From positions 1 through 20,941 of the IMG/VR virus record IMGVR_UViG_3300020469_002881: a stretch of DNA of 20,941 bases; one strand, written 5' to 3'. This document shows, piece by piece, positions 3,075 to 19,413 of the stretch. The position numbers and the translations under genes are program-made. Position 1 is the first letter of the stretch; each line of letters opens with the position of its first letter. The notes under the pieces are model-generated. The model had not been told where the DNA came from, ran no database searches, and was given only the letters and a program-made list of their open reading frames with translations. The DNA comes from a virus.

Positions 3075-3082
3075 GATAAATA
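3075..3082 (+). promoter_or_regulatory. T4-type late promoter (GATAAATA)
   Basis: GATAAATA matches the T4 late-promoter core TATAAATA in seven of eight positions. With T4 geometry (core at -13 to -6) transcription would start at A3088 and give a 21-base leader containing AAGG (3097-3100) eight bases before the ATG at 3109. An overlapping weaker copy, TATAAATG, lies at 3068-3075. This is the only one of the five ATAAATA sites that leaves room for a normal ribosome binding site. Confidence 0.5.
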
Positions 3083-4843: not shown

Positions 4844-5791
4844 ATGACAAAACGAAATACAGCTTTTTTCCTTAGTGGGGGAGCTGGTAGAATGCTTAGT
4901 GCAGTGCCAGCTTTAGAACTTTACGAACAAGAAAATCCAGATGATGACTTTGTAATAGTATGCGAAGGTACTTGGGAAATGTTCAGAGGACATTCTCTAC
5001 AAAAGAGATGTACCGGACCTGATTTACCACATTTGTTTACTGAAAAAATTAAAAATAGGAACTGTGTAACTACAGAGCCTTACAGAGTGTGGGAATATTA
5101 CAATCAAGAATGTAGTCTTAGACAAGCATTTGATATACAGATCAATAACAAAGGTGTCAGAGATGTGCCTGTACCTAATTTTTATCTAAGTTCAGACGAA
5201 GATGTAAAAGGCTATCATGCAGTTAAAGAAGGTAAAGAAAAAACAGGAAAAGAAAAGGCAATAGTATTACAGCCTTTTGGAAGAAGTTCACAGAATATCA
5301 AAGGCTTTGTATATGATGGTGGTGGCCGCAGTTTAGATATTATGGATACGATTGAACTTGTTAAAAAACTTAAAAAAGATTTTTGTGTGTTTATGATGAG
5401 TGAACATAAGATGAGTTCAGATGAAAACGAAGATTGGAAAGGTGTTGGACAACCAGACAACATCGACTTGCGTGGTTGGGCAGGTATTATCAATAACTGT
5501 GATCATCTAGTTGGCATCGATAGTGCAGGTCAACATATAGCTACTAGTTTAGGTATAAGTACCACAGTACTTTTTGGATCAACTTATCCTATTAATACAA
5601 GTTATCCAGACAATTCTAACGTAAAAATTATAGACTTTGATAAAGAAAAAAGAGGATATTCGCCTATTAGAATAGCTCATGACGATACTATTGAAAGACA
5701 AAATGATAAATGTTTAAAATTTGAAGACAAATACAGAGACATAAATGAAATAGTTAAAGCTATTAAAACTAAACTTGGAGTTAAAAAATAA
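4844..5791 (+). CDS. GT9-family (heptosyltransferase-like) glycosyltransferase
   Basis: The 315-residue protein shows the pattern of family 9 glycosyltransferases (ADP-heptose:LPS heptosyltransferases, WaaC/WaaF type). An N-terminal Rossmann segment has a Gly-rich turn ('SGGAGRMLSAVPAL', residues about 10-23). The C-terminal nucleotide-sugar site 'GIDSAGQHIATSLG' begins at residue 224 and continues to 'TTVLFGST', matching the family pattern D-[ST]-G/A-x-x-H-x-A...G-x-P-x-x-x-L-F-G. It is probably cytosolic or peripheral at the inner membrane face. The start is supported by GAGG four bases upstream and a promoter 30 bases further. It is first in a five-gene overlapping operon, and the window also encodes HldD and an HldE-like enzyme, so ADP-heptose is a reasonable donor; this is inference, as GT9 enzymes can differ in donor and acceptor. 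Confidence 0.75.
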   Translation: MTKRNTAFFLSGGAGRMLSAVPALELYEQENPDDDFVIVCEGTWEMFRGHSLQKRCTGPDLPHLFTEKIKNRNCVTTEPYRVWEYYNQECSLRQAFDIQINNKGVRDVPVPNFYLSSDEDVKGYHAVKEGKEKTGKEKAIVLQPFGRSSQNIKGFVYDGGGRSLDIMDTIELVKKLKKDFCVFMMSEHKMSSDENEDWKGVGQPDNIDLRGWAGIINNCDHLVGIDSAGQHIATSLGISTTVLFGSTYPINTSYPDNSNVKIIDFDKEKRGYSPIRIAHDDTIERQNDKCLKFEDKYRDINEIVKAIKTKLGVKK

Positions 5792-7680
5792 TGAAAGACA
5801 TTTGGGTCGCCGGAGTAAATCGAGGACATAATGCTGGTATCTGCTTACTTAAAAATGGTAAGTTAGTTTTTAGTAGTGAAGAAGAGCGTTATAGTAGACA
5901 AAAGTATGACGGCGCACCTCTTGGAAGTATAGTTAGATTACAAGAGTATACAGATAAATTAGATAGATTTGGTTTAGGTGGAACGTCACAACTAGTCAGA
6001 GGCGCAGAATCTCCATTTGTGGAATACAGTGGAGATAATATGTATCCTGCACTATTGAGAAAGTTAGGACTTTTACCAGGACCTACACAAGCTAATATGG
6101 AAGACTACGATCTGAAAGTACCAGGATCTCATCCACAAATAGATGACCATGGATTAGAACATCATAAATGTCATGCTTGGCTAGCTTTTAGTAAAAGTGG
6201 TTTCGATACTGCAACTGTGCTTGTTGCAGATGGCGCTGGTTCTTTTTTGCCTATTAGATCAGGTATTGCTTATGAAGCAAAAGGACATGAGGTAACTGGT
6301 TGGGAAGTCGAGTCTGTTTTCTTAGGAGATGCAAAAGCTGATGTTCCAATTAAAACTGTGTTTAAAAATATTGGTACTAGAGAAACAGTAGCAGGTTCTT
6401 GTTTTAACGCTTTATCATCCGGAGAAGGTTCTCCGTTGTTTATGAGAAATGAACCAGAAGATGGTGAACATGTTGTACTAGTACATGATCGAGCTGGTAT
6501 AGTGAAAGTTTATGAGGCAATTACTACACTACTTGGGTTTCCAAGTATCGAAGCTGGAAAGTTAATGGGACTTGCGCCTTATGGCAAATCTAATGAAAAT
6601 ATTAGAAGTTTTAGAGATTCTACTAATGATTTTTGGCCCTTGTCAAACAGAATGGCAATTATCCCAACGTATCCTAATTCTGGGCAATTAGGTTATACAC
6701 ATTTTATTCATATTTTACAAGAAATAAAAGATTTTGTAACTTTTGAAGATAGAACCAAATCGGAACTAGGAAGAGATTTTGCATATCATTGTCAAGAAGA
6801 AACACAACAGATGATGTTAGATGCTATTTTAAAAGCAGTTGAAACTACAGGTGATAAAAATGTAGTACTTACTGGTGGATATGCATTAAATTGTGTTGCT
6901 AATTATTGGTATTTAGATAAACTTAAAGAACACGATATTAACTTATATGTCGAACCAGTTAGTAATGATTCTGGGATCGCAATGGGAAGTGCATTATATA
7001 CTCATTGGCTAGAAACTAAAGAGTTTGTAAAATTAGAACCAACACTATATTTAGGTGAAAAGTATAATTATACTAATGAAGATATTAACAAAACTGCAAT
7101 TAAGTATGAAGCACAAGTTAAAGATGCTTCTCAAACAGATGTCGTAAACTTAATTAAAGATAAGAATATTGTAAGTATATTTCAAGGTAGAAGTGAAAAC
7201 GGTCCACGTGCATTAGGCAATAGAAGTATACTATATGATCCAAGAGATCCAGATGGTAAGGATCATGTAAACAAAGTTAAGAGAAGAGAATACTTTAGAC
7301 CATTTGCTGGTACTATACTAAAAGAACATGTACATGAATGGTTTGATCTTAAAGGCATGGAAGATACACCACATATGATGTATGCTGTAAATTGCCAACC
7401 AGGAGTTGAAGAAAAGATTCCGAGTATTATTCATGTTGATGGCACTTGTAGAATACAAACTGTTACTGAAGAAGAAAATGCTAATTATTATAATTTGATA
7501 CAGGAATGGTACAAACAAACAGGTTGTCCTGTAATTTTCAATACTAGTTTTAACTTAGGTGGCGAGCCGTTAGTTGAAACACTAGATGATGCTATAAGAA
7601 CACTGTCGAGCAGTGATATTGAATATTGTTACTTACCAGAGTTTGGTAAACTAATTTATTTGGAAAATAAAGATGACTGA
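5791..7680 (+). CDS. NodU/CmcH/TobZ-type O-carbamoyltransferase
   Basis: The 629-residue protein has both domains of the family. The N-terminal YrdC-linked/Kae1-like domain begins with 'HNAGICLLKNGKLVFSSEEE', followed by 'EHHKCHA' (123-129), which carries the conserved metal-binding His residues, and 'VADGAGS' (146-151). The C-terminal domain (about 460-625) has 'FQGRSENGPRALGNRSIL', 'YFRPFAG' and 'NTSFNLGGEP'. The family transfers a carbamoyl group from carbamoyl phosphate through a carbamoyl-adenylate to a hydroxyl of a sugar or related acceptor. Length is close to that usual for the family (about 550-630). ATG shares its A with the previous TAA (TAATG), so translation is coupled to the glycosyltransferase. 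From memory, such carbamoyltransferases recur in marine T4-like phages. The acceptor is unknown; a sugar added by this operon is the obvious candidate. Confidence 0.9.
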   Translation: MKDIWVAGVNRGHNAGICLLKNGKLVFSSEEERYSRQKYDGAPLGSIVRLQEYTDKLDRFGLGGTSQLVRGAESPFVEYSGDNMYPALLRKLGLLPGPTQANMEDYDLKVPGSHPQIDDHGLEHHKCHAWLAFSKSGFDTATVLVADGAGSFLPIRSGIAYEAKGHEVTGWEVESVFLGDAKADVPIKTVFKNIGTRETVAGSCFNALSSGEGSPLFMRNEPEDGEHVVLVHDRAGIVKVYEAITTLLGFPSIEAGKLMGLAPYGKSNENIRSFRDSTNDFWPLSNRMAIIPTYPNSGQLGYTHFIHILQEIKDFVTFEDRTKSELGRDFAYHCQEETQQMMLDAILKAVETTGDKNVVLTGGYALNCVANYWYLDKLKEHDINLYVEPVSNDSGIAMGSALYTHWLETKEFVKLEPTLYLGEKYNYTNEDINKTAIKYEAQVKDASQTDVVNLIKDKNIVSIFQGRSENGPRALGNRSILYDPRDPDGKDHVNKVKRREYFRPFAGTILKEHVHEWFDLKGMEDTPHMMYAVNCQPGVEEKIPSIIHVDGTCRIQTVTEEENANYYNLIQEWYKQTGCPVIFNTSFNLGGEPLVETLDDAIRTLSSSDIEYCYLPEFGKLIYLENKDD

Positions 7681-8839
7681 CAGTGAAAAGAAAATAGAAT
7701 TTACTGAAAAAACAGGATCTAGAATCTTAGCAGAATTTAAAAATAATAGATTTGAAGCAGATCCAAGTTTAAAACATAAAGATGAGCGTGGAAATTGGAA
7801 TTTAAAGAGAGCTGAAGATAAGAGCGGCGATATATGGTTTAATTGGGATCCTGACCATGACTTTAAAGAATATCCAAACAATGTACATCCTTGGCATCCA
7901 GATCCAAGTTATCGACATCATCATTGGACTGAAATAGAATTTGATCCAATGGAACCTGGACCACCTTGGGATCAAAGTTATGTACAACCAGATAATGATA
8001 TATGGCCTGATCAATGGGTAAATAATTGGTGGAGACAATGGGATATTGATAAACACAATTTATCAGATAGAGAGATGTATGACAAATATCCTGAAATGTG
8101 TGAAGAATACATAATAGAGGAAGAAGTTGAAGAATACAAACAAAAAATGCTTTATGCATTAGAAAAAGGTTTTATAACATATGAAATTGGCGGTATTAAT
8201 CCAAATTCTAAATTAGATGAACCAGAGCATTTAACAGGTAGTGATTTAGTGTTTAATCAAAACGCAAACACAGTAAAACTGTATACTCTTACTTTAAGAG
8301 ATGATATGATACCTGATAGCTCTAATAACCCAACAAACGACTGCTATGGAACAGATCCTCATATCTACGCATTTGATAAGACATCTGATACATGGCACAG
8401 ATTTAATATAAGGAGGTTACATAACGTGTGGGACACAAGATTTTATAAATTTAATACAGAGCAACATTGGGTAATTAAAAAACTTGCAAATTGGACTGCA
8501 AAGTTAGCTTGGAAAGTAAATCCTGAAATATCAAGTAAACCAAAAGAAGTACCTGACGATAATTTAAGGTACTGTGAAGTAACACTTAAACCAGATATAA
8601 TTCCAAAAGATTTCGAGCAACTTCCACAAGTTTCATACGAAGATAGATGGGATCCACAAGTACAAGTAAACTTATGGGATATGACAAATAAACAAGTATT
8701 AACATTACGAATGGACCAAATACATGATTTAACTGTTGATCCTAAACACAGTGAATCTCCTCCTCCAGAAGCTTCGGCCGATCATCCAGATCATCAAAAA
8801 TGGCTAGAAAAACAGAAAAGTAAAAATGACTCAGCTTGA
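7673..8839 (+). CDS. Unidentified acidic, Trp-rich protein in the glycan operon
   Basis: The product has 388 residues and overlaps the carbamoyltransferase by eight bases. Residues about 45-130 are dense in Trp, Pro, His and Asp ('WFNWDPDHDF', 'NVHPWHPDPSYRHHHW', 'QWVNNWWRQWD'). A short helical charged stretch follows ('EYIIEEEVEEYKQKM', about 144-158). Then come mixed beta-like segments with 'TDPHIYAFDKTSDTWHRF' (about 228-245), and the tail is charged and Pro-rich. No catalytic motif, signal peptide or membrane span is evident and I do not recognise the family. Its central place in the operon suggests a role with the same glycan, or a virion decoration. A nearly perfect Shine-Dalgarno sequence lies inside the gene and could start a 137-residue C-terminal product (see 8409-8428). 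Confidence 0.75.
   Translation: MTDSEKKIEFTEKTGSRILAEFKNNRFEADPSLKHKDERGNWNLKRAEDKSGDIWFNWDPDHDFKEYPNNVHPWHPDPSYRHHHWTEIEFDPMEPGPPWDQSYVQPDNDIWPDQWVNNWWRQWDIDKHNLSDREMYDKYPEMCEEYIIEEEVEEYKQKMLYALEKGFITYEIGGINPNSKLDEPEHLTGSDLVFNQNANTVKLYTLTLRDDMIPDSSNNPTNDCYGTDPHIYAFDKTSDTWHRFNIRRLHNVWDTRFYKFNTEQHWVIKKLANWTAKLAWKVNPEISSKPKEVPDDNLRYCEVTLKPDIIPKDFEQLPQVSYEDRWDPQVQVNLWDMTNKQVLTLRMDQIHDLTVDPKHSESPPPEASADHPDHQKWLEKQKSKNDSA
8409..8428 (+). promoter_or_regulatory. Internal strong Shine-Dalgarno with in-frame GTG
   Basis: TAAGGAGGT (8409-8417) is fully complementary to the 16S anti-Shine-Dalgarno core, and an in-frame GTG follows at 8426-8428 after eight bases. It lies within the Arg-Arg codons AGG AGG of the 388-residue ORF. 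Initiation there would give a 137-residue protein identical to the C-terminal third (8426-8839). No gene start I examined in the window has so long a match. It could also be a chance result of an Arg-Arg pair in an AGG/AGA-preferring genome. Confidence 0.35.
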
Positions 8840-9194
8840 CGGCGTACAAGCAAAAGGTTGGGGCAGAGAACTTATTTGGGCAACCAATGACAAGTACTGT
8901 GGTAAACTTATGTTCTTTGATCGCAAAGGTGCGAAATTTAGTATGCACTTTCATAAAGAAAAAGACGAAAGTTGGTATGTACTAAAAGGTAGCTTTACAT
9001 TACATATTATGAATACAGAAACTGCTGATATACAAACACAAGTACTTAAAACAGGAGACACTTGGCGAAATGAACCCATGTGGCCTCACCAGTTGGTAGC
9101 TATGGAAAATGACTGTATTATCATCGAAGTTAGTACACCAGACAGTGTAGAAGATAATTATAGAATTGGAAAAGGAGATAGTCAAAGTGTCTGA
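8826..9194 (+). CDS. Single-domain cupin
   Basis: This 122-residue protein has the two cupin motifs. Motif 1 is 'HFHKEKDESWYVLKG' with H41, H43 and E48; motif 2 is 'GDTWRNEPMWPHQL' with H88; together these are the usual 2-His/Glu/His metal ligands. The overall form ('MHFHKEKDESWYV', 'IIIEVSTPD', 'DNYRI') is closest to the cupin domain of sugar-phosphate enzymes such as mannose-6-phosphate isomerase type II. It starts 14 bases inside the end of the preceding gene, with only a weak ribosome site, so coupled translation is likely. In this operon a sugar isomerase/epimerase-like role, or sugar binding, is the best inference. Family membership is clear; the reaction is not. Confidence 0.8.
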   Translation: MTQLDGVQAKGWGRELIWATNDKYCGKLMFFDRKGAKFSMHFHKEKDESWYVLKGSFTLHIMNTETADIQTQVLKTGDTWRNEPMWPHQLVAMENDCIIIEVSTPDSVEDNYRIGKGDSQSV

Positions 9195-10089
9195 GAAACA
9201 AATTCCATTGGGACCTTGTCTTTGGGTATTTGGGGATAGTTATGTTTCTGAAGCAAATGCTCATTACAATTATACTAACAGATCTAATTGGGTATGGACT
9301 ACTCGACTGGCAAAAAAACTTGGTCTTAACAGATCTTGTGTTGTGGCTCAATATGGAGTTAGTAACGAATGGATTATGACTCAGATAAAAGGTTATAGAC
9401 ATCATATAAATCCAGAAGATATTGTAGTAATTGTTAGCAGTGGAATGGGCAGAAGATGGTTCTTTAAACATTCTCCTGAATTGTGTAATTTTGCGAGTTT
9501 ATGGAACACTGTATTAAATAGAAAAGAGTTTTGGAAACAGGAAAGATGGAAAGGCAAAGGTAAACAAGTTCAAAAAGCAATAGATTATTATCTAACTTAC
9601 CTAGCAGATGAAAATGATATACTCGACAATACATACATGGAAATGTTCTTGGCATGGTGTTATCAAGCTCAGCAGTGGGGGCAATGGAGAAACATGATTT
9701 TACTAGCTGGGTTTGAAGCAATGCCATTACACTCTGGCAATTCAATAGAAGCCAGTCTATTTGATATCGACGGAGACGAAATAGATAAAGATAGTATTAA
9801 ACACAAACAAAAATTCCTAAATCATTATGATTTTCAAGATCCTAGAATAATGCACCTAAGTAGACCAAATCACGAAATTATGGCACAAAAGCTATATGAA
9901 AATATTGTAAATGATACTCCTCTAGACTTTACTACTGGATTTGAAAAAAATCTCTACTTAGACGAAAGCACATGGAAAACTCCTCTTTTATCTGAAGATG
10001 AGGTTAACTTCGGTAGTGAAACTATAACTTTACACAACTGGATAGCAGGAAGAGATAAAGATATATTTGCTCAGAAAAATAGTTTTTAA
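9187..10089 (+). CDS. SGNH/GDSL-like hydrolase
   Basis: From GTG at 9187 the protein has 300 residues. I prefer this start because AGGAG (9173-9177) lies nine bases upstream; a TTG at 9166 would add seven residues but has no such site. The N-terminus has 'WVFGDSYV' with the block I GDS (residues 16-18, S18 the putative nucleophile). Next come 'QYGVSNEWI' (block II-like Gly) and 'IVVIVSSGMGR'. Near residue 230 'MHLSRPNHEIMAQKL' resembles the terminal H-x-N-x-x-(G)H-x-x-MA block that supplies the catalytic His. The canonical DxxH is not clear, so activity is less sure than the fold. Such enzymes often add or remove acyl groups from glycans, which fits a five-gene glycan operon of which this is the last member. 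It overlaps the cupin by eight bases and meets pcyX tail to tail. Confidence 0.65.
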   Translation: MSEKQIPLGPCLWVFGDSYVSEANAHYNYTNRSNWVWTTRLAKKLGLNRSCVVAQYGVSNEWIMTQIKGYRHHINPEDIVVIVSSGMGRRWFFKHSPELCNFASLWNTVLNRKEFWKQERWKGKGKQVQKAIDYYLTYLADENDILDNTYMEMFLAWCYQAQQWGQWRNMILLAGFEAMPLHSGNSIEASLFDIDGDEIDKDSIKHKQKFLNHYDFQDPRIMHLSRPNHEIMAQKLYENIVNDTPLDFTTGFEKNLYLDESTWKTPLLSEDEVNFGSETITLHNWIAGRDKDIFAQKNSF

Positions 10090-10754
10090 ACCTCAGGAAA
10101 CAAGCACTCTTCAATAAAGTGTTTAATAGCAACAGGATCAAGTCCTAGTGCTTCCATAGCCTTAGGTGTATGTGGATTTTGTTTTTGATAATGACAATAT
10201 CTGTTTTGCTGATCTTTTATTAAACCTTGGTTATATTGAGCTTTTGTATATTTAGGTAGCTCTTCAAAGTACATGTCTAGGTTATCTAATGCCATAGTAA
10301 CAACCTGATCCATTTCGTCTGCTTTTACATTGCTTGCGGCTACCATATGTTTGCTGAATATTGCTTGAGCCCACGGAGGTAGTTCACGTTGTTTTTTCCA
10401 TTCTAAATCTTCTACACAATCTCTAAACAATAAACACATAGGATGATGCCAATCTACTGTAGGGGAATAGTCATGGAAAGCACCAGTAACTTTGTTTTTA
10501 CCTGCAATAATATCAAACCCATATATAGGTGCATCATTGTCAAAGTTTGGAAACACACATATATGAGTCATATACAACCCTTTTGAATCTCTAGCATCTA
10601 CACTGTCTATATGAGCTCGTCTAAAATGATCTCCTTTGAATACTCTGTTTAACCAATCAAACTCTGGATCGTCAAAATTTTCTTTGCCTAAACTAGCACA
10701 TTTTGCAATAATCTTTTGTTCGCAATCAATAAGTTTATCCCATATTTCGCTCAT
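10086..10754 (-). CDS. pcyX: Ferredoxin-dependent bilin reductase, PcyX-like
   Basis: The 222-residue protein carries the signature of the ferredoxin-dependent bilin reductases (PcyA/PebS/PcyX family). Seen motifs are 'YMTHICVFPNFDNDAPIYGFD' broken as YMTHICVFPN (61-70) and APIYGFD (75-81), 'FHDYSPT' (93-99) with D95 at the place of the family's catalytic Asp, 'LPPWAQAIFS' (125-134) and 'YCHYQKQNPHT' (186-196). These enzymes reduce biliverdin IXa with electrons from ferredoxin. From memory, PcyX is a phage-borne form that makes phycoerythrobilin and comes from phages of presumed alphaproteobacterial hosts. Exact product cannot be read from sequence, and PebS or PcyA activity is an alternative. 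The ATG overlaps the hemA stop (ATGA), so the two are translationally coupled. No heme oxygenase, which would supply biliverdin, is in this window. Confidence 0.85.
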   Translation of the reverse strand: MSEIWDKLIDCEQKIIAKCASLGKENFDDPEFDWLNRVFKGDHFRRAHIDSVDARDSKGLYMTHICVFPNFDNDAPIYGFDIIAGKNKVTGAFHDYSPTVDWHHPMCLLFRDCVEDLEWKKQRELPPWAQAIFSKHMVAASNVKADEMDQVVTMALDNLDMYFEELPKYTKAQYNQGLIKDQQNRYCHYQKQNPHTPKAMEALGLDPVAIKHFIEECLFPEV

Positions 10755-11935
10755 AATACTTCCTCTAATCGTTCTGCAAGATCCGAAATCATTGCGTTGC
10801 TGTGCATTGGTGTTGGTGCAAATCTTAAACGTTCTGTGCCTTCTGGCACAGTTGGATAGTTAATTGGCTGTACATAAATGTTGTGATCATTTAGTAATGT
10901 ATCACTTATTTGTTTACAACGTACAGGATCTCCAACTATAACAGGAACAATATGTGTATCATTTTCTATCATGTTTATGTCTTTGTGTCTTAGTATTTTC
11001 TTTAGTCTTGTTGCACGATTTTGATGTTGTTCACGCAGTTCAACTCCATGCTCACTACGCAAATATTTTATACTACTCAATGCTCCTGCACATATAACCG
11101 GACTCATGCTGGTGGTAAAAATAAAACCACTTGCTACACTTCTAATTGCATCTATAGCAACATCATCTCCGGTGACATAGCCTCCTTGGCAACCAAATGC
11201 TTTGCCCAGTGTACCATTTACAAAGTCTACACGATCCTGTAATCCAAGTAGTTCTAAGTAACCAGCACCAGTAGCGCCATATAATCCAACAGCATGTACC
11301 TCATCACAATATGTGATAGCTTGATATTCTTCAGCAAGTGCGACTATATCTTTTAGCTTGCTAGTATAACCGTCCATGCTGTATACACTTTCAAACACAA
11401 TACAAGCTGTGCCTTGTACTTGGGCTAGTGCTTGCTCTAAGCTATTCATGTCGTTGTGTTCAAATACATGTTTAGGTGCACCACTGTGTCTAATGCCTTG
11501 TATAAGACTAGCGTGATTTTTGCTATCACTTACAAATTCAATGTCTTTTACTATTTTACTAAGTGCAATTAGTGTCCATTCATTGGCAACATAAGCACTG
11601 GAGTATAACAAAGACGACGGTTTGTTGTGTAATTTCGACAGTTCGTATTCTAATGCAACATGATAATGACTGGTACCTCCGATGTTTCTAGTACCTCCAC
11701 TGCCTGCTCCGGTTTGATTAAGTGCAGTGTGCATTGCATCTAATACAACTTTGTGTTGACCCATGCCCAGGTAATCATTGCTACACCAGTTAACAATGTT
11801 TTTTATATTGTAAGGACCGTAATAGATTGCTTGTGGATATTCTCCGCGTTCTCTGAGTATGTCGTTGAATACTCTGTAATTTCCACTACTCTTTAAGTTG
11901 TTTACAATGTCCTGAAATTTGTTTTTGTCTATCAT
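10751..11935 (-). CDS. hemA: 5-Aminolevulinate synthase (Shemin pathway)
   Basis: From ATG at 11935 the protein has 394 residues and aligns end to end, from memory, with Rhodobacter capsulatus HemA. It begins MIDKNKFQDIV, like MDYN... starts of the family; a longer ORF reaching 11980 adds 15 residues without homology. Motifs are 'WCSNDYLGMGQH', 'TGAGSGGTRNIGGTSHYH', 'NHASLIQGIRHSG' (from 140), 'DEVHAVGLYG' (from 211), 'NGTLGKAFG' with PLP Lys near 245, and 'YVQPINYPTVPEGTERLRF'. The enzyme condenses glycine and succinyl-CoA to 5-aminolevulinate, the first tetrapyrrole precursor, using PLP. The SGGTRNI and PTVPEGTERLRF motifs favour ALAS over the related BioF and KBL enzymes. It follows a 61-residue ORF, overlapping it by 50 bases, and overlaps pcyX by four. 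Transcription is probably from the late promoter at 12077-12084. Confidence 0.93.
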   Translation of the reverse strand: MIDKNKFQDIVNNLKSSGNYRVFNDILRERGEYPQAIYYGPYNIKNIVNWCSNDYLGMGQHKVVLDAMHTALNQTGAGSGGTRNIGGTSHYHVALEYELSKLHNKPSSLLYSSAYVANEWTLIALSKIVKDIEFVSDSKNHASLIQGIRHSGAPKHVFEHNDMNSLEQALAQVQGTACIVFESVYSMDGYTSKLKDIVALAEEYQAITYCDEVHAVGLYGATGAGYLELLGLQDRVDFVNGTLGKAFGCQGGYVTGDDVAIDAIRSVASGFIFTTSMSPVICAGALSSIKYLRSEHGVELREQHQNRATRLKKILRHKDINMIENDTHIVPVIVGDPVRCKQISDTLLNDHNIYVQPINYPTVPEGTERLRFAPTPMHSNAMISDLAERLEEVL

Positions 11936-12071
11936 GATATTCTTTATACATTTCTTTATCAACATATGTGTAGGATCCAAACCACGTGCTTATTGTAAAG
12001 TATCCCATTTCATTCATTTCTTTGGTAGTTGAGTTACAGTCTTTGATCCATTCTTTGATGTACTTTAACAT
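11886..12071 (-). CDS. Small protein preceding hemA
   Basis: The ATG at 12071 opens a 61-residue ORF (MLKYIKEWIKDCN...). It lies exactly five bases after the late-promoter octamer TATAAATA and has no Shine-Dalgarno sequence, as at three other late genes here; this favours 12071 over the longer 80-residue reading from 12128, which would begin upstream of the promoter. The peptide is charged and Trp/Tyr-containing ('STWFGSYTYVDKEMYKEYHD'), without a signal or membrane segment. From memory, similar small 'KEWxKDC...YVDKEMYKEY' proteins occur in other marine T4-like phages, with no known function. Its end overlaps the hemA start by 50 bases, which might couple hemA translation to it. It could instead be a leader ORF with no active product. 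Confidence 0.6.
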   Translation of the reverse strand: MLKYIKEWIKDCNSTTKEMNEMGYFTISTWFGSYTYVDKEMYKEYHDRQKQISGHCKQLKE

Positions 12072-12076
12072 AATTA

Positions 12077-12084
12077 TATTTATA
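12077..12084 (-). promoter_or_regulatory. T4-type late promoter (perfect TATAAATA) for the hemA/pcyX operon
   Basis: On the minus strand TATAAATA is followed by TAATT and then ATG at 12071. In T4 late promoters this octamer occupies about -13 to -6, so the first transcribed base would be the A of ATG and the message would be leaderless. It is the only exact eight-base match to the T4 consensus in the window. It lies eight bases from the -35 box of the oppositely oriented hldD promoter. Confidence 0.6.
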
Positions 12085-12092
12085 GTTAATTG

Positions 12093-12121
12093 TTGACAAG
12101 ATATATTGTGTGCTATATAAT
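12093..12121 (+). promoter_or_regulatory. Consensus sigma70 promoter for hldD/hldE
   Basis: TTGACA (12093-12098), 17 bases, TATAAT (12116-12121): both boxes and the spacer match the consensus exactly. The expected start is near 12128, giving a leader of about 15 bases that contains AGGAG (12132-12136), six bases before the hldD ATG. Such a promoter should be read by unmodified host RNA polymerase early in infection. Confidence 0.8.
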
Positions 12122-12142: not shown

Positions 12143-13012
12143 ATGCATATCGTCACAGGTGCGGCTGGATTTATTGGAAGTAATTTAGTTGCTCATTTAA
12201 ACAAACAAGGACATGAAGATATCTTACTGGTAGATAATCTTTCTATGGATAAAACAAAAAATCTTGCATATTTACGTTTTGAAGATATGATAAGTCCTAG
12301 TGAACTATTAGAAGCAAATATAGATAAGAGCGATGTTGTATGGCATATAGGTGCGAATAGTAGTACAAAGGAAACAGATTGGAATAAGATATATTCTAGC
12401 AATGTGGCATATACAAGGCAACTAGTAAGCAAATGTAATACAATGGTATTTGCTAGTAGTGCCAGTGTTTATGGAGATAATATTACTACACAAGAGCACC
12501 CAGTTAATGAAGCTCCTAAAAATTTATATGCCAGTAGTAAGTTGATTTGTGACAATATTTTTAGAAATACTGTTGGTTGTAAAATACAAAGCTGGAGATT
12601 CTTTAATGTGTACGGTAATAGAGAAAGCCACAAACAATCTGTAGGCATGGGAAGTCCATATACAAACTTTATTAAACAAGCGAAAGACACAGGTGTTATA
12701 AAAATATTTGAAGGTAGTGAAAAAGTACAGCGTGATTTTGTATGCATTGATGATGTAGTACATGTTATGTATCAGTGTTTACAACACGACGAAAGTTTTA
12801 TTTGTAATCTTGGTACAAGTACTACATATACATTTGAATACTGGGCAAAGTTAATAGCAAGTCATTACAATGCTACTATTGAATATATACCAATTCCAGA
12901 TGACCTTAAAGGAATTTATCAAATGTACACATGTAGTGATAACAATCAATTGGATACACTTATTAATCACAACTTTAAATCTCCTGATCAATTTGTAGAG
13001 GAAAATTTGTGA
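12143..13012 (+). CDS. hldD: ADP-L-glycero-D-manno-heptose 6-epimerase (HldD-like)
   Basis: The 289-residue protein is an extended short-chain dehydrogenase with an N-terminal NAD(P) site 'GAAGFIGSN' (6-14), 'ASSASVYG' (104-111) and the catalytic Y129-x3-K133 pair ('LYASSK'). HldD-specific stretches, compared from memory with E. coli HldD (310 residues), are 'RFFNVYGNRESHKQS', 'IFEGSEKVQRDFV' and 'IEYIPIPDDLKGIYQ', of which the last is nearly diagnostic. The enzyme inverts C6 of ADP-D-glycero-D-manno-heptose to the L,D form used for LPS inner core. The start has AGGAG six bases upstream and a consensus promoter. It overlaps the hldE-like gene by four bases (GTGA). GmhA and GmhB, which make the earlier intermediates, are not in this window and may come from the host. 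Confidence 0.87.
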   Translation: MHIVTGAAGFIGSNLVAHLNKQGHEDILLVDNLSMDKTKNLAYLRFEDMISPSELLEANIDKSDVVWHIGANSSTKETDWNKIYSSNVAYTRQLVSKCNTMVFASSASVYGDNITTQEHPVNEAPKNLYASSKLICDNIFRNTVGCKIQSWRFFNVYGNRESHKQSVGMGSPYTNFIKQAKDTGVIKIFEGSEKVQRDFVCIDDVVHVMYQCLQHDESFICNLGTSTTYTFEYWAKLIASHYNATIEYIPIPDDLKGIYQMYTCSDNNQLDTLINHNFKSPDQFVEENL

Positions 13013-14172
13013 TTGTAGTAATAGGCGATATTATTATAGATGAATATGTTTATGGCACAAGCACACGGCTTAGTCCAGAAGCACCAGTACCTGTTGTAAA
13101 ACACGAAAAGACAGAACGTAAATTAGGCGGAGCAGGAAATGTTTACAATAACATAAAAAGCCTTACAGATGATGTAACCCTAATAGGTTATAGAAATGAC
13201 ACTACTGATTGGCCCGTAGAGCTGTTTTGCACACACATGCCACTAAAGCAAAGAATATATGCTGACAAACACTATATTACTAGGATTGATAGAGAACAAA
13301 CAATAGATAATAGTACATTGTTTGATTATGTTAAAAAACGTGTGCATAACTCTACAGTGGTAATAAGTGATTACAACAAAGGCACTATACAAGATTCGCA
13401 ACGTTTGATAAAAATACTTAAAGATAATAACTGTTATGTAATTGTCGACCCTAAACAACATTTAGATTTATATACAGGTGCTGATGTAATCAAACCTAAT
13501 AAAAAAGAATATGAAGAATATAATAATGGTGTTAAAACTGATATGGTTGTAACAATGGGTGCAGATGGCTATATGATAAATGGCGTACACTACCCAACGC
13601 AAAAACAAGATGTATATGATGTTACAGGTGCAGGTGATACATTTTTAGCAGTGATGTCATATTTTTTAGACTCGGGTGAAAGTTTAGAGTTTGCCTGTGA
13701 GATGGCTAACAAAGGTGCTGGTATAAGTGTACAACACAATGGTGTTTATGTGGTGCATTGGAAAGACTTGGATCCTCGCCCTACAGTTGTGTTTACAAAT
13801 GGTTGTTTTGATTTGTTACACAGAGGACATGTAGAAATGCTTAAAGCTAGTAAAGCACTCGGAGAGCATCTTGTAGTAGGGTTAAATACTGATTCTAGTG
13901 TCAAAAGATTAAAAGGTGACACTAGACCAATCAATAACGAAACTGATAGAAAAGTAGTACTTGAGAGTTTAGATTTTGTCGATGAAGTTATTTTATTTGA
14001 TGAAGATACACCACAACAATTAATAGAGAGAATACGACCTAACATTATAACCAAAGGTGGTGACTACACTGTTGATACTGTAGTTGGTAACGAGCTAGCT
14101 GAAGTTATAATTATACCAACTGTAGAAAATCAAAGCACTACAAATACAATAACCAAACTAAAAGCTGTCTAG
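13009..14172 (+). CDS. hldE: Bifunctional heptose kinase/cytidylyltransferase-fold enzyme (HldE-like, compact)
   Basis: The product has 387 residues from a GTG start, with AGAGGA six bases upstream and a GTGA overlap with hldD. Residues 1 to about 255 are a PfkB-type kinase: 'GDIIIDEYVYG', 'RLSPEAPVPVVK', 'KLGGAGNVYNN' and the catalytic GAGD at 207-210. The rest is a nucleotidyltransferase domain with 'FTNGCFDLLHRGH' (HxGH at 271-274), 'RLKGDTRPIN', 'FDEDTPQQLI', 'ITKGGDY' and 'STTNTI', all matching HldE. In E. coli HldE (477 residues) these domains phosphorylate D,D-heptose 7-phosphate at C1 and form ADP-heptose. The roughly 90-residue shortfall falls in the kinase half, so kinase function is a little less certain. 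It ends overlapping the Nudix gene tail to tail by 15 bases. Confidence 0.87.
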   Translation: MIVVIGDIIIDEYVYGTSTRLSPEAPVPVVKHEKTERKLGGAGNVYNNIKSLTDDVTLIGYRNDTTDWPVELFCTHMPLKQRIYADKHYITRIDREQTIDNSTLFDYVKKRVHNSTVVISDYNKGTIQDSQRLIKILKDNNCYVIVDPKQHLDLYTGADVIKPNKKEYEEYNNGVKTDMVVTMGADGYMINGVHYPTQKQDVYDVTGAGDTFLAVMSYFLDSGESLEFACEMANKGAGISVQHNGVYVVHWKDLDPRPTVVFTNGCFDLLHRGHVEMLKASKALGEHLVVGLNTDSSVKRLKGDTRPINNETDRKVVLESLDFVDEVILFDEDTPQQLIERIRPNIITKGGDYTVDTVVGNELAEVIIIPTVENQSTTNTITKLKAV

Positions 14173-14616
14173 CCAATTTGGCAAATCAGTTTGATCTTTT
14201 TCACGTTCGTATATAGTTACCAGTTTATCTACAAGTTGTTTATTTGATAATACAACTCTAGCACCTCTGTGTAATGGCTTGGGCCAGCAGTCTATGCTTA
14301 CCCAACTATATCCACTGCTTTCATAATTACAACTAGGTATAAATTCTTCAAATACTGTTATACAAAACGTATTGTAAGTAAACTTTTTATCATCACTTAG
14401 AAAAGTATGTAGTGGGTGTACTTTAGCAATATCGGGTAATGGTCCCATTTCTTCTTTACATTCTCTGAGTAGTGTTTCGATAGGACGTTCTTTTTTCTCA
14501 GCTTTGCCTCCCCAAAAACTCCAAGTCAATGGGTGACTACTTCGTTTACTTCTTTGTTGTAGCATGATTCTGCCTGTGTCTAAGGCAAGAAAACAGCAAC
14601 CGCTTGCTTGTATCAT
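14158..14616 (-). CDS. Nudix hydrolase
   Basis: From ATG at 14616 the protein has 152 residues. This start shares its A with the gp15 stop (TAATG), the same junction as between gp14 and gp15; a TTG at 14634 would add six residues but lies inside gp15 without better support. The Nudix box is complete: G37-x5-E43-x7-R51-E52-x2-E55-E56-x-G58, preceded by 'TWSFWGG'. Nudix enzymes hydrolyse nucleoside diphosphates linked to another group, such as oxidised dNTPs, NAD, nucleotide sugars, or capped RNA ends; the substrate cannot be chosen here. Its position as the last gene of a structural operon is unusual for nucleotide metabolism. A role on ADP-heptose made by the facing hldDE genes is possible but speculative. 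Confidence 0.85.
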   Translation of the reverse strand: MIQASGCCFLALDTGRIMLQQRSKRSSHPLTWSFWGGKAEKKERPIETLLRECKEEMGPLPDIAKVHPLHTFLSDDKKFTYNTFCITVFEEFIPSCNYESSGYSWVSIDCWPKPLHRGARVVLSNKQLVDKLVTIYEREKDQTDLPNWLDSF

Positions 14617-16019
14617 TATAGGTATATTCGCCAAAATCCTGGGTTATAAGTGCCTTCAAATGCATTTACCCACTCTGTGCCGTTGTATTTTAGTCTATCG
14701 GCAGTAGTTGTATTTGTTGTATGTTGTACTGTAGATCCATTAACACTTGCATCAAAAACAATATCCCATTGATTTGTTCCTAAGCTGTACTGTACAATAT
14801 CATGTTTCTTTGCACTACTGCCTAACCAACCTGCTCCGCCTGCAACATCTTCTGTAAGCAAATATCTATCGCCATCTGCCGCCGCAGTAATTGTTCCGTC
14901 TCCGGGTTGGTTAGCTTGTGGATTAACCACTGCATCAACAGCTTGTACTGTATTAGCGGGGAAGGTTGAAGTATCCATAGTAATGTCAAGTAAATTAGGA
15001 TTTCCTTGATTTACTTTTATGTTGCCAATTATGTCTCCGCTTGTGTCTCCTGGATTGTCTGTTTGCTTTAATCTCAGTTGACTTATATCGTCTCTAAATT
15101 CTCCAAAAGGTTTAAAAATATCTTCCCAAATCAATAGACCATTAGCATTACTGTTAGTACCACTTTCACTCAATAATTGTGCAGAACCATTGCCACTAGC
15201 GTCCATTGTAAAACGCATTTTGAAATTATCTAGTGTAACAACTTTATAACTTGTAAACAATGGAACATAACTTTGACCTGCTCTTAGAGCATCTAAACCT
15301 GCTTCGTCTGTGTCGTTTATGTTATCAATTATGGTGTGTATAATAGTTTGTTTTTGTACTTTAGCAGGTGGGTTAATCAACACAGGCATATTAAATGTCA
15401 TTGTACTGATATCAATAATATCATCTACTCCGCTGGGTATTGCTCTCATACTCCAAGTGCTAGCAATGAGTTCTACATAGCTTAGTGTACTCCAATCAAG
15501 TGGATTATTACTGGTGTGTATATTCAGTGTAGGATTAAACAACACTAGTATTTGTTCTAGTAGCTGTAATTTTTGTTCTGTATTTGATGTCCATACATCT
15601 ACTTGCATTGTTAAATTGTAAGGAACAGGTTGATGTCTTTTTATACTATAAGCTCGACCTTTTTCATTTTCATATGCTCCGGTTATCTCATTAAATTTCT
15701 TTTCGTAAACTGGTACAGTTTCTTCATATGAACCAAGTGTTCTTCTGTCGGGTGCAGTTTCTAGTCCTGTTACATGACAACTAATAAATGGAGTAGTTTG
15801 TACCATGTTTTCTGAATTTTCTCTTACAATGTGTGCCGCCATTCTACTTACATCACCATAACGTACAGGTGCAGTCTGATATACAACATTTCCAGCACTA
15901 TCTGTATGCATAGCTACTTGAAATCCAGCAAATATTCTTATAAACTGTTGAATATATCTACGAAGCTGTTTATCGTAAAAGTAAGGTACTGCTGTAAGTT
16001 TTGGACTTGTGCTTGCCAT
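14616..16019 (-). CDS. 15: gp15-like tail-sheath terminator/stabiliser with C-terminal extension
   Basis: The 467-residue protein aligns from memory with T4 gp15 (272 residues). The N-terminal 'PYFYDKQLRRYIQQFIRIFAGFQV' region (12-35) matches T4 'YFYNSSFRRYATLMGDLFSNIQI', followed by 'VRYGDVSRM' against 'VPITYASKE'. 'PYNLTMQVDVWTSNTEQKLQLLEQILVLFNP' (133-163) matches 'IYELSIFTRYEDDMFQIVEQILPYFQP', and 'MTFNMPVLINPP' (207-218) ends the core. gp15 caps the tail tube and sheath and joins the tail to the head. Residues about 236-467 are extra. Within them 380-423 ('ADGDRYLLTED...WLG...DIVQYSLGTNQWDIVF') resembles the DUF2793-type surface module of phage structural proteins, and a further 'DRLKYNGTEWV' element lies near 441-451. 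The gene overlaps its neighbours by one base on each side. Confidence 0.82.
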   Translation of the reverse strand: MASTSPKLTAVPYFYDKQLRRYIQQFIRIFAGFQVAMHTDSAGNVVYQTAPVRYGDVSRMAAHIVRENSENMVQTTPFISCHVTGLETAPDRRTLGSYEETVPVYEKKFNEITGAYENEKGRAYSIKRHQPVPYNLTMQVDVWTSNTEQKLQLLEQILVLFNPTLNIHTSNNPLDWSTLSYVELIASTWSMRAIPSGVDDIIDISTMTFNMPVLINPPAKVQKQTIIHTIIDNINDTDEAGLDALRAGQSYVPLFTSYKVVTLDNFKMRFTMDASGNGSAQLLSESGTNSNANGLLIWEDIFKPFGEFRDDISQLRLKQTDNPGDTSGDIIGNIKVNQGNPNLLDITMDTSTFPANTVQAVDAVVNPQANQPGDGTITAAADGDRYLLTEDVAGGAGWLGSSAKKHDIVQYSLGTNQWDIVFDASVNGSTVQHTTNTTTADRLKYNGTEWVNAFEGTYNPGFWRIYL

Positions 16020-17110
16020 TATTTGTTATCCGCTTGTGGTTTTATAACTTCACTAAGTGCAGTTTGTTCTTTTGTTTCTTGGTCATCAACAACTGTCGTG
16101 TTTTCGTTAAAAATGTAATTGCTAGCGTTATAAGTTTTATCTGTCCATGTTTGCCCAGTAATATTATCATATAGTCTATGCCATCTGTTACCTCGTCTGG
16201 CAAACAATCTATTCGGACTAAAATCTGTTCTAATAAAGTAATCGCCTTCGGCTGGGTTACTCGGAAATTGATCTCCGCTGTTAATACTTTCTCCGTGGCT
16301 ATATGAGTTGGACTGATTTACAATACCACCACTAGTAGCATCATCATATCCAAACAAATGATCTGTTAAACTAGTGCCAGTTGGATCAGCTTGATCAGCC
16401 GCCTCTACAATAGCATTACTAATATTATATTCTGCTTTGTATGTACTAAGATCATTTTTAAGACTTTCGCTATCTTTTCCATCTCCAAGTATATCATAGT
16501 ATTCTTGACTGTCTGTCAATGGTGATAGTTTAACACGCCATATATGAGGATACCAAGTTTGGCTAAATCCTTCTGCCCCTCGGTTTGTATCATTTACAAC
16601 ATAGTATTTGTTAATTGCTTTTTTATCTGCATTCAACAATAATGCATCTCTAAGATGAGGAAGCTCTAGTACGTCTCCTGGCATTAAACGTCTACCCATT
16701 ATTTCTACCATTTGATTCATATGGAATGTCATGTATAACATATCGTTACTGAGAAAAAGTCCAAACTGTGTAAGATCAAAATCTGTATCTTGTACATTAT
16801 AAACGCCACGCATTTCGTAAATGTCAGGATCATATTTGCGATCTCTATTTTCCATAAACAATAAGTCTTGTACTTTTGTTTCGTTTAATATACCTTCAAC
16901 ATTTATAAATTCTCCACTAAGTGGATCTATTTCTCTACCGTCGATGTAATTAGGCTGACTAGGATCGTTTTTATCAGCAGTTACCGCTGGTCCTAAGTAT
17001 TTGTGTACATGTACACCTGTTCCGCCTACGTCAAACTGTTCACGGATAGTTCTATCCATGTAGTGATAATCGTTAGTTTTGGTCGGTTTATATAGACTTA
17101 ATCTTGGCAT
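16019..17110 (-). CDS. 14: gp14-like neck protein
   Basis: The 363-residue protein has 'KTNDYHYMDRTIREQF' (11-26), 'VQDLLFMENRDRKYDPDIYEMRG' (80-102), 'DLTQFGLFLSNDMLYMTFHMNQM' (about 112-134), 'MPGDVLELPHL' (143-153) and 'FSQTWYPHIWRVKLSPLTDSQEY' (182-204). Their order and pattern fit T4 gp14 ('FSNFGMQVQDEVTLSI', 'EGDLIYFPMDNSLFEI'), and the gene stands directly before gp15 as in T4. From memory, related proteins in marine T4-like phages are often called only 'virion structural protein', so the gp14 name is an inference. A C-terminal extension (about 270-363) has a small module, 'GDYFIRTDFSPNRLFARRGNRWHRLYDN' (289-316), of the kind seen on phage surface proteins. The ATG follows a late-type octamer by five bases and has no ribosome site. 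Confidence 0.65.
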   Translation of the reverse strand: MPRLSLYKPTKTNDYHYMDRTIREQFDVGGTGVHVHKYLGPAVTADKNDPSQPNYIDGREIDPLSGEFINVEGILNETKVQDLLFMENRDRKYDPDIYEMRGVYNVQDTDFDLTQFGLFLSNDMLYMTFHMNQMVEIMGRRLMPGDVLELPHLRDALLLNADKKAINKYYVVNDTNRGAEGFSQTWYPHIWRVKLSPLTDSQEYYDILGDGKDSESLKNDLSTYKAEYNISNAIVEAADQADPTGTSLTDHLFGYDDATSGGIVNQSNSYSHGESINSGDQFPSNPAEGDYFIRTDFSPNRLFARRGNRWHRLYDNITGQTWTDKTYNASNYIFNENTTVVDDQETKEQTALSEVIKPQADNK

Positions 17111-17115
17111 ACAGT

Positions 17116-17123
17116 TATTTATC
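17116..17123 (-). promoter_or_regulatory. T4-type late promoter (GATAAATA) for the 14-15-Nudix operon
   Basis: On the minus strand GATAAATA, ACTGT and then the gp14 ATG at 17110 follow in order. The five-base gap predicts transcription from the ATG itself. No Shine-Dalgarno sequence is present. It lies 14 bases from the -35 box of the divergent plus-strand promoter. Confidence 0.58.
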
Positions 17124-17137
17124 GTAAATCTATGAGG

Positions 17138-17165
17138 TTGACAAATAAGTAAAAAGTGTTATGCT
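17138..17165 (+). promoter_or_regulatory. Sigma70-type promoter with extended -10
   Basis: TTGACA (17138-17143), 16 bases, TATGCT (17160-17165), with TGT at 17157-17159 immediately before the -10 box giving an extended -10. Expected transcription begins near 17172, and AAGGA (17181-17185) lies seven bases before the GTG at 17193. The upstream GG (GGTTGACA) is shared with the promoters at 17401 and 20806. Confidence 0.6.
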
Positions 17166-17192
17166 ATTAAGAAAACTTCAAAGGAAATACTA

Positions 17193-17390
17193 GTGAAGAC
17201 AATATTCATATTCTTATTACTGTCAACTGACATGGACATGACATTGGATGCAACGGCTGTGTATGGTCTACAAACATTAGAACAATGTAACTTTATTTTA
17301 GAAACAATCAAAGGAGAGTTCAATGCAACAGACGGATACTGTTATGATGATAGCACCGGAGATATAAACACAAAGTTTGGGAACTCGTAG
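17193..17390 (+). CDS. Small putatively exported two-cysteine protein
   Basis: This 65-residue ORF starts with GTG, supported by AAGGA seven bases upstream and a promoter just before it. The N-terminus MKTIFIFLLLST is a short positively charged then hydrophobic stretch, like a signal peptide or membrane anchor. The remainder is acidic and has two Cys (residues 32 and 49) that could form a disulphide once exported. It ends just before a second strong promoter, so it forms a one-gene unit. From memory, small proteins of this shape are common in marine phages and have no assigned function. An envelope role such as superinfection exclusion is possible but unsupported. Confidence 0.6.
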   Translation: MKTIFIFLLLSTDMDMTLDATAVYGLQTLEQCNFILETIKGEFNATDGYCYDDSTGDINTKFGNS

Positions 17391-17400
17391 ATTTACAAGG

Positions 17401-17440: not shown

Positions 17441-17465
17441 ACAGAAACATTTTGAGGAGACTCTT

Positions 17466-18704
17466 ATGGCTAGAGTGAATAAAATTACAGGTCGAGCAGT
17501 TAAAAAGAAAACGCCACTAAAGCGTATTAGTAAGCGTGGATTGCAAGCACCTGGATTTGAAGGATGGGAAAATTTATCTGGTGATAAGTTCCATAGGCTA
17601 AAACGTCATAATAATGATTTCTGGTATATGAACTACAAACATAATGAAAATATAGAACATTTGTTTACCTGGATGAAACAAAATGATTACACTAGATCAG
17701 ATATCTCAAATGCAAAGAAAGCCGCTAAACATGAAGGACTAGTAGGTATCTACTGTCGTATGTTATTAGATGGTTGTCCTGATTATAATCCTAAGGAACA
17801 GGAATACTGGCAAGCATGTCCTGGCACAGGTGGCGATATTGCTCCTATGACAGATTACATTAAACCTAAAATTACCGAACTTGTAGAAGCAGGAAAACTT
17901 ATTGTTGAAGAGAAAAAATCTACAACAAAAAATGTATACATACCTAGTATACAAGAACGTTTACAAGAAGCGGCTGAAGAAAAAACAGGTGAATTAGACG
18001 AATGGTTAGACAATTGGATGCGTGACCCTAAAAAGAATCCGCTAAAAGATGTACACCCAATTAAAATGTTTAAGAAAAATCAAATTAATCTTGGGCACCT
18101 ACGTTTTGTAACAAACTGGTATACAGGTAGTTATGAAGAACTGTTAGAACTAGTTGATCTTCCTACACCTAAGAAACGTGACGACATGCAGGAACAACTT
18201 GCTGAAGGCTACAGTTCATATAGCAAATCTCAAATTAAAGAACTTGTAGACTTTTATAAGAGACTGTTTGATGCTATTGAAATAATGAAAGCAGAGCAAA
18301 AACAAAATCGTGCAGTTCGTAAACCTAAGGTTAAAAGTGCTCAGGAGCTTGTTAAAAAGCTCAAGTTTAAGCCTAGTGATGGAGACTTTGGTATTGCTAG
18401 TATTAACCCAAGTGAGATTATTGATGCAACCGCGGTAGTAGTGTTTAATACAAAGAACCGTAAGATAGGCATTTACTATGCAGAAGACCATGCACAGTTT
18501 AAAGTTAAAGGAACTACACTGCAACATTTTAGCGAAACTCGAAGTGTACAAAAGACAGTTCGTAAGCCAGATGAAGTACTACCTAGTTGGAAAAAGGTTA
18601 CTAAACACAAACTAAAAGCACAGTTTGGATATCTCAAAACAACTGAGACAAAAATGAATGGTAGATTTAATTCAGATACTATCATTCTTAAAGCCTTCAA
18701 ATAA
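17466..18704 (+). CDS. Unidentified Lys-rich protein
   Basis: The 412-residue protein has a strongly basic start ('VKKKTPLKRISKRG', residues 12-25) and is rich in Lys and Arg throughout. A middle part (about 150-300) is probably helical and charged. The last ~110 residues look like a mixed alpha/beta domain ('IDATAVVVFNTKNRKIGIYYA', 'TKHKLKAQFGYLKTT'). I see no helicase, nuclease or protease motif, no signal peptide and no membrane segment. It has its own consensus sigma70 promoter and a strong ribosome site, so early, high expression is likely. The basic N-terminus could bind nucleic acid. I do not recognise the family. Its stop region holds the late promoter of the next gene. Confidence 0.8.
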   Translation: MARVNKITGRAVKKKTPLKRISKRGLQAPGFEGWENLSGDKFHRLKRHNNDFWYMNYKHNENIEHLFTWMKQNDYTRSDISNAKKAAKHEGLVGIYCRMLLDGCPDYNPKEQEYWQACPGTGGDIAPMTDYIKPKITELVEAGKLIVEEKKSTTKNVYIPSIQERLQEAAEEKTGELDEWLDNWMRDPKKNPLKDVHPIKMFKKNQINLGHLRFVTNWYTGSYEELLELVDLPTPKKRDDMQEQLAEGYSSYSKSQIKELVDFYKRLFDAIEIMKAEQKQNRAVRKPKVKSAQELVKKLKFKPSDGDFGIASINPSEIIDATAVVVFNTKNRKIGIYYAEDHAQFKVKGTTLQHFSETRSVQKTVRKPDEVLPSWKKVTKHKLKAQFGYLKTTETKMNGRFNSDTIILKAFK

Positions 18705-18707
18705 ATA
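18700..18707 (+). promoter_or_regulatory. T4-type late promoter (AATAAATA) for the metallopeptidase gene
   Basis: AATAAATA overlaps the stop codon of the preceding gene and is followed by GTTAT and the ATG at 18713. The five-base gap again predicts a leaderless transcript, and no Shine-Dalgarno sequence precedes the start. The first base departs from T4 TATAAATA. Confidence 0.5.
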
Positions 18708-18712
18708 GTTAT

Positions 18713-19405
18713 ATGAAAGTTTACGAGATAGTCGAAGCACGGGTAGAGCCTGACAAAAAGTTTATGAGTCAGGTTGAGCAAATTCTCGACGACAGTATCG
18801 AAGAGTATCAAGACTACCTAGACGATAGCAACGATGTCGACGATATAGACGAACTAGAAGAAATACTTAACTCAAACAATCAAAACAATTTACCTATAGA
18901 GTTTTTTGCTGTTGACCAAGAACGTGAAGATCCAAATGAATGGATCAGTGCAGAAGCTGGCATAGACAAAGATGGTAAATTTATGCAAGTGTATTTGTTT
19001 ACAAAGAATCTTGCAGGCAAGTATGGTCCAAAAACTTTCAAACAAATTGTAATGCGTATGCTTGCACACGAAACTATCCATTGGAATCAGTATACTAAGA
19101 TTGGTTTGGATAGAGTTAATAAAATGAAAAGTGGTCACCAAAAAGGTACTGAACTAGCAAATAAAACTGGAGATCCTAGAGATTGGATGCGTGAATATTT
19201 GCGTGATCCACACGAACTTATGGCATACGGCAGTGACCTTGCTAGCGAAATAAAAGATACTGATAATCCAGAACAAGTGTTAAGAAACCCAGAAGCATAT
19301 AAAAATGATTTGCCTAGTTATGCTAGGTATAGACAGGTTTTTGAGCCTAATAGTAAAGAGATTAAACAACTGCTCAAGTACACCGCGGATTATTATAACG
19401 GATAA
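18713..19405 (+). CDS. Putative HExxH zinc metallopeptidase
   Basis: The 230-residue protein has 'MLAHETIHWNQY' with the zinc motif H119-E120-x2-H123, and a second conserved-looking block 'YLRDPHELMAYGSDLA' (162-177) whose E168, 45 residues on, is a likely third ligand as in gluzincins. Residues about 20-55 are very acidic (Asp/Glu runs), and no signal peptide is present. The start 'MKVYEIVEA' has no ribosome site but follows a late promoter by five bases. It lies directly before the gp13-like gene, so a part in head or neck maturation, or in host lysis, could be guessed. From memory, similar HExxH...HE(I/L)MAYG proteins occur in other marine T4-like phages. Proteolytic activity is unproven. 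Confidence 0.7.
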   Translation: MKVYEIVEARVEPDKKFMSQVEQILDDSIEEYQDYLDDSNDVDDIDELEEILNSNNQNNLPIEFFAVDQEREDPNEWISAEAGIDKDGKFMQVYLFTKNLAGKYGPKTFKQIVMRMLAHETIHWNQYTKIGLDRVNKMKSGHQKGTELANKTGDPRDWMREYLRDPHELMAYGSDLASEIKDTDNPEQVLRNPEAYKNDLPSYARYRQVFEPNSKEIKQLLKYTADYYNG

Positions 19406-19408
19406 ATA
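19401..19408 (+). promoter_or_regulatory. T4-type late promoter (GATAAATA) for the gp13-like gene
   Basis: GATAAATA overlaps the stop codon of the metallopeptidase gene and is followed by TTAGT and the ATG at 19414. The gap is five bases and there is no Shine-Dalgarno sequence. Confidence 0.55.
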
Positions 19409-19413
19409 TTAGT

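Follow-up and report, generated by a model that had tools for sequence, protein, structure and literature searches.

A predicted late operon for 5-aminolevulinate synthase and a PcyX-type bilin reductase, headed by a small conserved gene, in a marine T4-related phage

Phage loci that carry valaS together with hemO and pcyA or pcyX are already known (Wegner et al. 2024, Nat Commun; PMC11480375). The formation of 5-aminolevulinate (ALA) has been demonstrated for one of the encoded synthases, vAlaS of the freshwater phage CB_2, and the residues named for heme feedback in such enzymes are His342 and Cys400 (PMC11480375). In T4, late promoters have no -35 element and carry a box roughly one turn of the helix ahead of the point where the transcript starts (PMC2988020). 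For pelagimyophages, a published effort to predict such promoters had no success (PMC7029224).

The window analysed here is the whole stretch of viral DNA, a complete IMG/VR record of 20,941 bases. A first-pass annotation had described a synthase and a bilin reductase gene overlapping by ATGA, preceded by a small ORF and a perfect late promoter box, and all four are present on the minus strand, back-to-back with a second set of genes on the plus strand:

10086..10754, minus strand: bilin reductase of the PcyX type (ferredoxin-dependent, 222 aa), overlapping vALAS by ATGA
10751..11935, minus strand: vALAS, 5-aminolevulinate synthase, 394 aa
10759..10766, minus strand: Shine-Dalgarno-like AGAGGAAG for PcyX, read from the sequence within the end of the vALAS gene
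11886..12071, minus strand: small ORF, first cistron, 61 aa, overlapping the start of vALAS by 50 nt
12077..12084, minus strand: TATAAATA, a late promoter box of the T4 type, from which transcription is predicted to start near 12071
12093..12121, plus strand: divergent sigma-70 promoter TTGACA-N17-TATAAT, 12/12 match, kept in all distinct relatives
12143..13012, plus strand: ADP-heptose 6-epimerase-like gene (TIGR02197, 225 bits, below cut-off)
13009..14172, plus strand: HldE-like heptose kinase/adenylyltransferase (NF008454, 317 bits, below cut-off)

Our reading, to which we give a probability of roughly 0.7, is that in this marine phage related to T4 the three minus-strand genes, for the 61-aa leader protein, vALAS and PcyX, make up one late operon that works as follows. 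A late RNA polymerase made of the host core and a gp55-type sigma would initiate at TATAAATA, and the mRNA would probably begin at the ATG of the leader ORF or a few bases from it, which would make the first cistron leaderless. Host enzymes would then carry 5-ALA on to heme. A heme oxygenase of the phage, with its gene elsewhere in the genome as part of the tail operon, would convert heme to biliverdin, and PcyX would reduce biliverdin to phycoerythrobilin.

In a profile search the synthase reaches 542 bits with TIGR01821 (cut-off 338.55). None of the models for bioF, KBL and serine palmitoyltransferase reaches its own cut-off, and a BioF/KBL identity, which the first-pass annotation had raised against its own assignment, is thereby ruled out. 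The PLP lysine that had been placed near residue 245 is K245, which aligns with K248 of Rhodobacter capsulatus ALAS and is, like D211 and H214, invariant among 73 sequences. Judged by its sequence, the protein is a true 5-aminolevulinate synthase, and it has a dN/dS of 0.056 among close relatives. In the alignment with the R. capsulatus enzyme Arg339 replaces His342 and the protein stops short of Cys400, so both heme-feedback residues are missing in vALAS.

A scan of viral contigs with an alignment of the small protein found the leader ORF in 28 viral loci, each with vALAS directly downstream and an overlap of about 50 nt between the two; several of these loci yielded no pcyX. For the part of the leader ORF that does not overlap vALAS, dN/dS among close relatives is 0.079 when read in the frame of the gene but 1.27 and 0.92 in the remaining two, and within the overlap constraint is seen in the synthase frame only (0.21 against 1.42). 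The small ORF that had been noticed ahead of the pair is on this evidence a real, conserved gene, met only in front of vALAS, and appears to represent a new family of micro-proteins that goes with phage ALAS. It has no match among protein families, and its AlphaFold model, a helix-hairpin-helix with a pLDDT of 75 and a pTM of 0.42, has no significant match in BFVD. A search of the window against Rfam found no riboswitch or other Rfam RNA. In loci L019-L023 a gene for a DUF454 membrane protein stands in the place of the leader ORF, with a 4-nt overlap with vALAS.

The promoter box of the operon lacks a -35 element and lies 13 nt ahead of the leader ORF ATG, and both the sequence TATAAATA and this position are invariant in all close relatives. 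The number of such boxes in the window is at chance (1 found against about 3 expected), and the count alone was dropped as promoter evidence for want of enrichment. It also speaks against the promoter reading that T4-type boxes are short and the DNA is AT-rich. A gp55-like late sigma is encoded by relative G015 (E 5e-11) and is absent from the window fragment. Within the clade, sites of the degenerate motif NATAAATA are mostly found ahead of ORFs, and many of these ORFs encode large fibre-like proteins. The late control proposed in the first-pass annotation has thus gained comparative backing as far as a late-type promoter is concerned; the late timing itself is what we infer from this promoter, and a need for the product near assembly or lysis, as that annotation had suggested, would be a further conjecture. 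A single 71-bp gap holds an early-type promoter leading into the heptose-sugar operon and a late-type promoter leading into the vALAS operon in the opposite direction. With the operon seemingly built for late expression and its neighbour for early expression, the heme and bilin cargo of phages becomes a question of timing. Several distant loci (L177-L186) have ATAAGTA in place of ATAAATA, with almost unchanged spacing to the leader ATG, perhaps as a shifted late box.

The same spacing recurs elsewhere in the window, where four of the five NATAAATA sites lie exactly 13 nt ahead of the ATG of an ORF of at least 50 aa. Besides the box of the small ORF, the five sites comprise one at a greater distance and three at 13 nt:

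3075..3082, plus strand: GATAAATA, 34 nt ahead of a Cys/Gly-rich 322-aa ORF (start 3109), with a leader
17116..17123, minus strand: GATAAATA, 13 nt ahead of the gp14-like gene (start 17110)
18700..18707, plus strand: AATAAATA, 13 nt ahead of a 230-aa ORF (start 18713)
19401..19408, plus strand: GATAAATA, 13 nt ahead of the gp13-like gene (start 19414)

Against a background rate of 0.0041 per position this gives a binomial P of about 1.5e-9, which is optimistic since the motif was known beforehand but the 13-nt spacing was spotted in the same data. The spacing reappears, outside the data in which it was first noticed, in two Pelagibacter phage isolates, Mosig and HTVC008M. With each protein family counted once, the 13-nt class comprises 5/22 sites in the window clade, 6/31 in Mosig and 8/13 in HTVC008M, against 0/16 in T4, 0/5 in Syn9, 1/11 in S-PM2, 0/4 in Atu_ph07 and 0/4 in Phosso. 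Pooled, this is 19/66 against 1/40 (Fisher P 0.0006), in a comparison that used partial genomes of T4, Syn9, S-PM2, HTVC008M, Atu_ph07 and Phosso. The class is absent from the compared parts of the Atu_ph07 and Phosso genomes, both jumbo isolates, and so is no general feature of the jumbo-type backbone.

Sites that lie 24-49 nt from an ATG mostly come with a Shine-Dalgarno sequence (14/16 in the clade). A late box acting about one helical turn from the transcript start, with 13 nt to the ATG, would place that start at or near the ATG and leave no room for a Shine-Dalgarno sequence, and we infer that late mRNAs of the 13-nt class are leaderless. A simple rule follows for some late genes of marine phages: NATAAATA - 13 nt - ATG. 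We see about even odds for a broader proposition. On this view two distinct backbones among the T4-related phages of the sea share a class of late promoters with transcripts starting at the ATG, and in one lineage a promoter of this class governs a tetrapyrrole operon whose first gene encodes a micro-protein dedicated to vALAS, back-to-back with an early sigma-70 promoter. In the library of papers searched, none joins leaderless, phage and TATAAATA.

Other boxes in the clade stand further from their genes. In relatives G001, G002 and G003 TATAAATA is found 35 nt ahead of the counterpart of the Cys/Gly-rich ORF. The protein encoded by this ORF in the window (3109-4077, plus strand) has 36 Cys and 65 Gly in its 322 aa, and those of relatives have 33-38 Cys at 320-326 aa; it has no family match and is adhesin-like by impression. 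A 210-aa ORF on the plus strand of G002 (16005) and G001 (21891) has TATAAATA 33 nt upstream and may, by its looks, encode a fatty acid desaturase; a late box would then precede a further cargo gene.

Alternatively, read-through or a host sigma-70 promoter could give expression of the operon early or throughout infection, with TATAAATA incidental. Some T4-like phages without MotA do pair early with late promoters (PMC2984593), and the minus strand carries weak sigma-70-like matches, TTGTCA-N18-AATTAT (9/12) and, within the leader ORF, TTGATA-N17-TATCAT (10/12). However, the 10/12 match runs up to the vALAS ATG, which would put the transcription start within the coding sequence, and the conserved TTGTCAA on the operon strand is accounted for as the complement of the -35 box TTGACA of the divergent promoter. 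The distance from TTGTCAA to TATAAATA differs among relatives and TATAAATA itself is unchanged, and a TATAAT reading on the operon strand loses its final T in several of them. With its best matches either badly placed or due to the divergent promoter, a host sigma-70 promoter for the operon was rejected, and we consider early or constant expression improbable. An equally low standing is given to the proposal that the 13-nt spacing reflects compact packing, in which the TAA stops of preceding genes create ATAAATA next to the following start, and not leaderless promoters. At the gp13-like gene and the gene starting at 18713 the TAA within the motif is indeed the stop codon of the preceding gene, but the box of the operon has the same spacing with no upstream gene on its strand. 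Scrambled AT-rich control motifs gave no comparable peak save where they overlapped the same sites, and T4 and the two jumbo relatives have none at 13 nt.

The identity of the reductase bears on the end product. The protein scores 70 bits against PF05996 (cut-off 31), and its best solved structure is PcyX 5owg (E 5e-57, 196 bits), against E 5e-15 and 59 bits for PcyA. It carries D50, H64 and D95, and the latter two, which align with PcyA His88 and Asp105 (PcyA numbering), are invariant among 61 distinct relatives. D50 aligns with PcyX Asp55 and PcyA Glu76; the position is Asp in the 33 closest of these relatives and mostly Glu in more distant ones. The enzyme might nevertheless be PcyA-like and make phycocyanobilin. 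The closest NCBIfam model is PcyA, at 91 bits though below its 206-bit cut-off, and the CB_2 PcyA/X turned out to be a true PcyA, for which the proposed reason is its missing Asp55 (PMC11480375). The window enzyme has the equivalent of this residue in D50, and this, with the far better match to PcyX among the structures, makes a PcyA-like activity doubtful and phycoerythrobilin the predicted product. It is also conceivable that the genes, as passengers or as decaying acquisitions from a host, play no role in infection, as no evident use for bilins was seen: a search of 22 records from the clade and from relatives, mostly fragments, found no bilin-binding GAF or phycobilisome proteins. We regard this as very improbable given the intact residues, the dN/dS of 0.06-0.10 across relatives (0.10 for PcyX among close relatives), and the persistence of the vALAS/pcyX pair in more than 20 contigs while the neighbouring genes vary.

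For the late operon that we favour, biliverdin would have to be supplied from outside the window, whose 20,941 bases contain no heme oxygenase, as the first-pass annotation had stated, and hence no three-gene cassette with hemO adjacent to pcyX and valaS. Of the two sources it had allowed, a gene elsewhere or the host, the former is favoured by relatives, since a heme oxygenase lies on the same contig as PcyX in G001 (33 kb away), G005 (about 24 kb), G015 (39 kb) and the more distant G028 (about 20 kb). The phage studied here is represented by a 20.9-kb fragment, and by comparison with these close relatives it would carry a heme oxygenase as well. In all four contigs the gene sits in a fibre-gene cluster, behind a gene of 682-802 aa where cleanly called and followed by a large fibre-like gene. 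These heme oxygenase genes (loci L187-L190) have a sigma-70-like element, TTGACA-N16-TACATT/TATAGT, ending 5 nt ahead of the ATG, so the enzyme is possibly made early as well as late. In the more distant relative L192, hemO and pcyX stand directly behind gp13, whose late box GATAAATA comes with a leader. No ferrochelatase was found among the 22 records, mostly fragments, and this, together with the missing bilin-binding proteins, counts against our reading. Iron supply as the purpose was ranked low, as ALAS and heme oxygenase together would give no net iron yield.

The gp13-, gp14- and gp15-like proteins of the window are 34-40% identical to those of Agrobacterium phage Atu_ph07 and Sinorhizobium phage Phosso and also match PA5oct. 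The gp15-like protein scores 282 bits to Phosso, 257 to Atu_ph07 and 48 to HTVC008M and Mosig, and the gp13-like and gp14-like proteins match jumbo phages only, among the phages compared; the structural genes are thus not closest to HTVC008M/Mosig, as would be expected of a pelagimyophage (Kyanoviridae). A tail fibre and a carbamoyltransferase are 39% and 32% identical to Mosig proteins, and relative G028 is a contig of 198 kb. These matches suggest a large T4-related phage near the T4-like jumbo phages, whose host would be a marine alphaproteobacterium, perhaps of SAR11 type. The plus strand also holds a glycan gene set (4844-9194 and 12143-14172) with a glycosyltransferase 9, a carbamoyltransferase, a WbuC-like cupin, the heptose epimerase and the HldE-like protein, the last being 387 aa long (model 475 aa) with a kinase part that matches in three pieces. 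A NUDIX hydrolase gene (14158-14634, minus strand) overlaps the gp15-like gene, a pairing also seen in PA5oct-like phages.

Compared with the known systems, the operon is a variant of a known phage cargo whose enzymes have already been described from phages. The gene pair is therefore less unusual than it had first seemed, valaS with hemO and pcyX being published (PMC11480375), and what is added is the small ORF and the late-type promoter. The published loci resemble the window in having the same enzymes in marine phages, in cassettes that are complete, broken or single, and in the loss of the heme-feedback residues. They differ in that valaS and pcyX are here joined by ATGA, with hemO far off in the tail operon of close relatives. 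The accessible text of PMC11480375 has no discussion of the promoters of these loci or of a leader ORF, and on the basis of gp13 it places its contigs with pelagiphages, whereas the gp13 of the window matches jumbo phages. The published gp13 tree grouped valaS contigs with pelagiphages, and the gp13/gp14/gp15-like genes at 14616-20154 match jumbo phages; the window clade may be misplaced in that tree. One scaffold in the accessible text, with a fatty acid desaturase, FDBR, HemO and vAlaS, may belong to this clade.

Pelagibacter phage Mosig (MT647606) has a hemO-pcyX locus among structural genes, with AATAAATA 18 nt ahead of hemO and a PcyX 44.5% identical to that of the window, but there hemO is adjacent to pcyX, the backbone is that of a pelagimyophage and no ALAS match is found. 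The late promoters of T4 (TATAAATA with gp55/gp33/gp45; PMC2988020) share the octamer and the lack of a -35 box, and a gp55-like gene occurs in a relative; unlike the exact 13-nt class here, sites in the stretch of T4 compared lie at least 18 nt ahead of the start codon, most with a Shine-Dalgarno sequence. The NATAAATA late promoters of the cyanophages S-PM2 and Syn9 (PMC2984593) have the same degenerate motif, but in 50-kb samples almost none fall into the 13-nt class. No earlier description of a leader gene and a late, apparently leaderless start of such an operon was found in the literature. What the locus would add to the known picture is an ATGA-linked pair with hemO in the tail operon of close relatives, a micro-protein linked to vALAS, and early-type and late-type promoters placed back-to-back.
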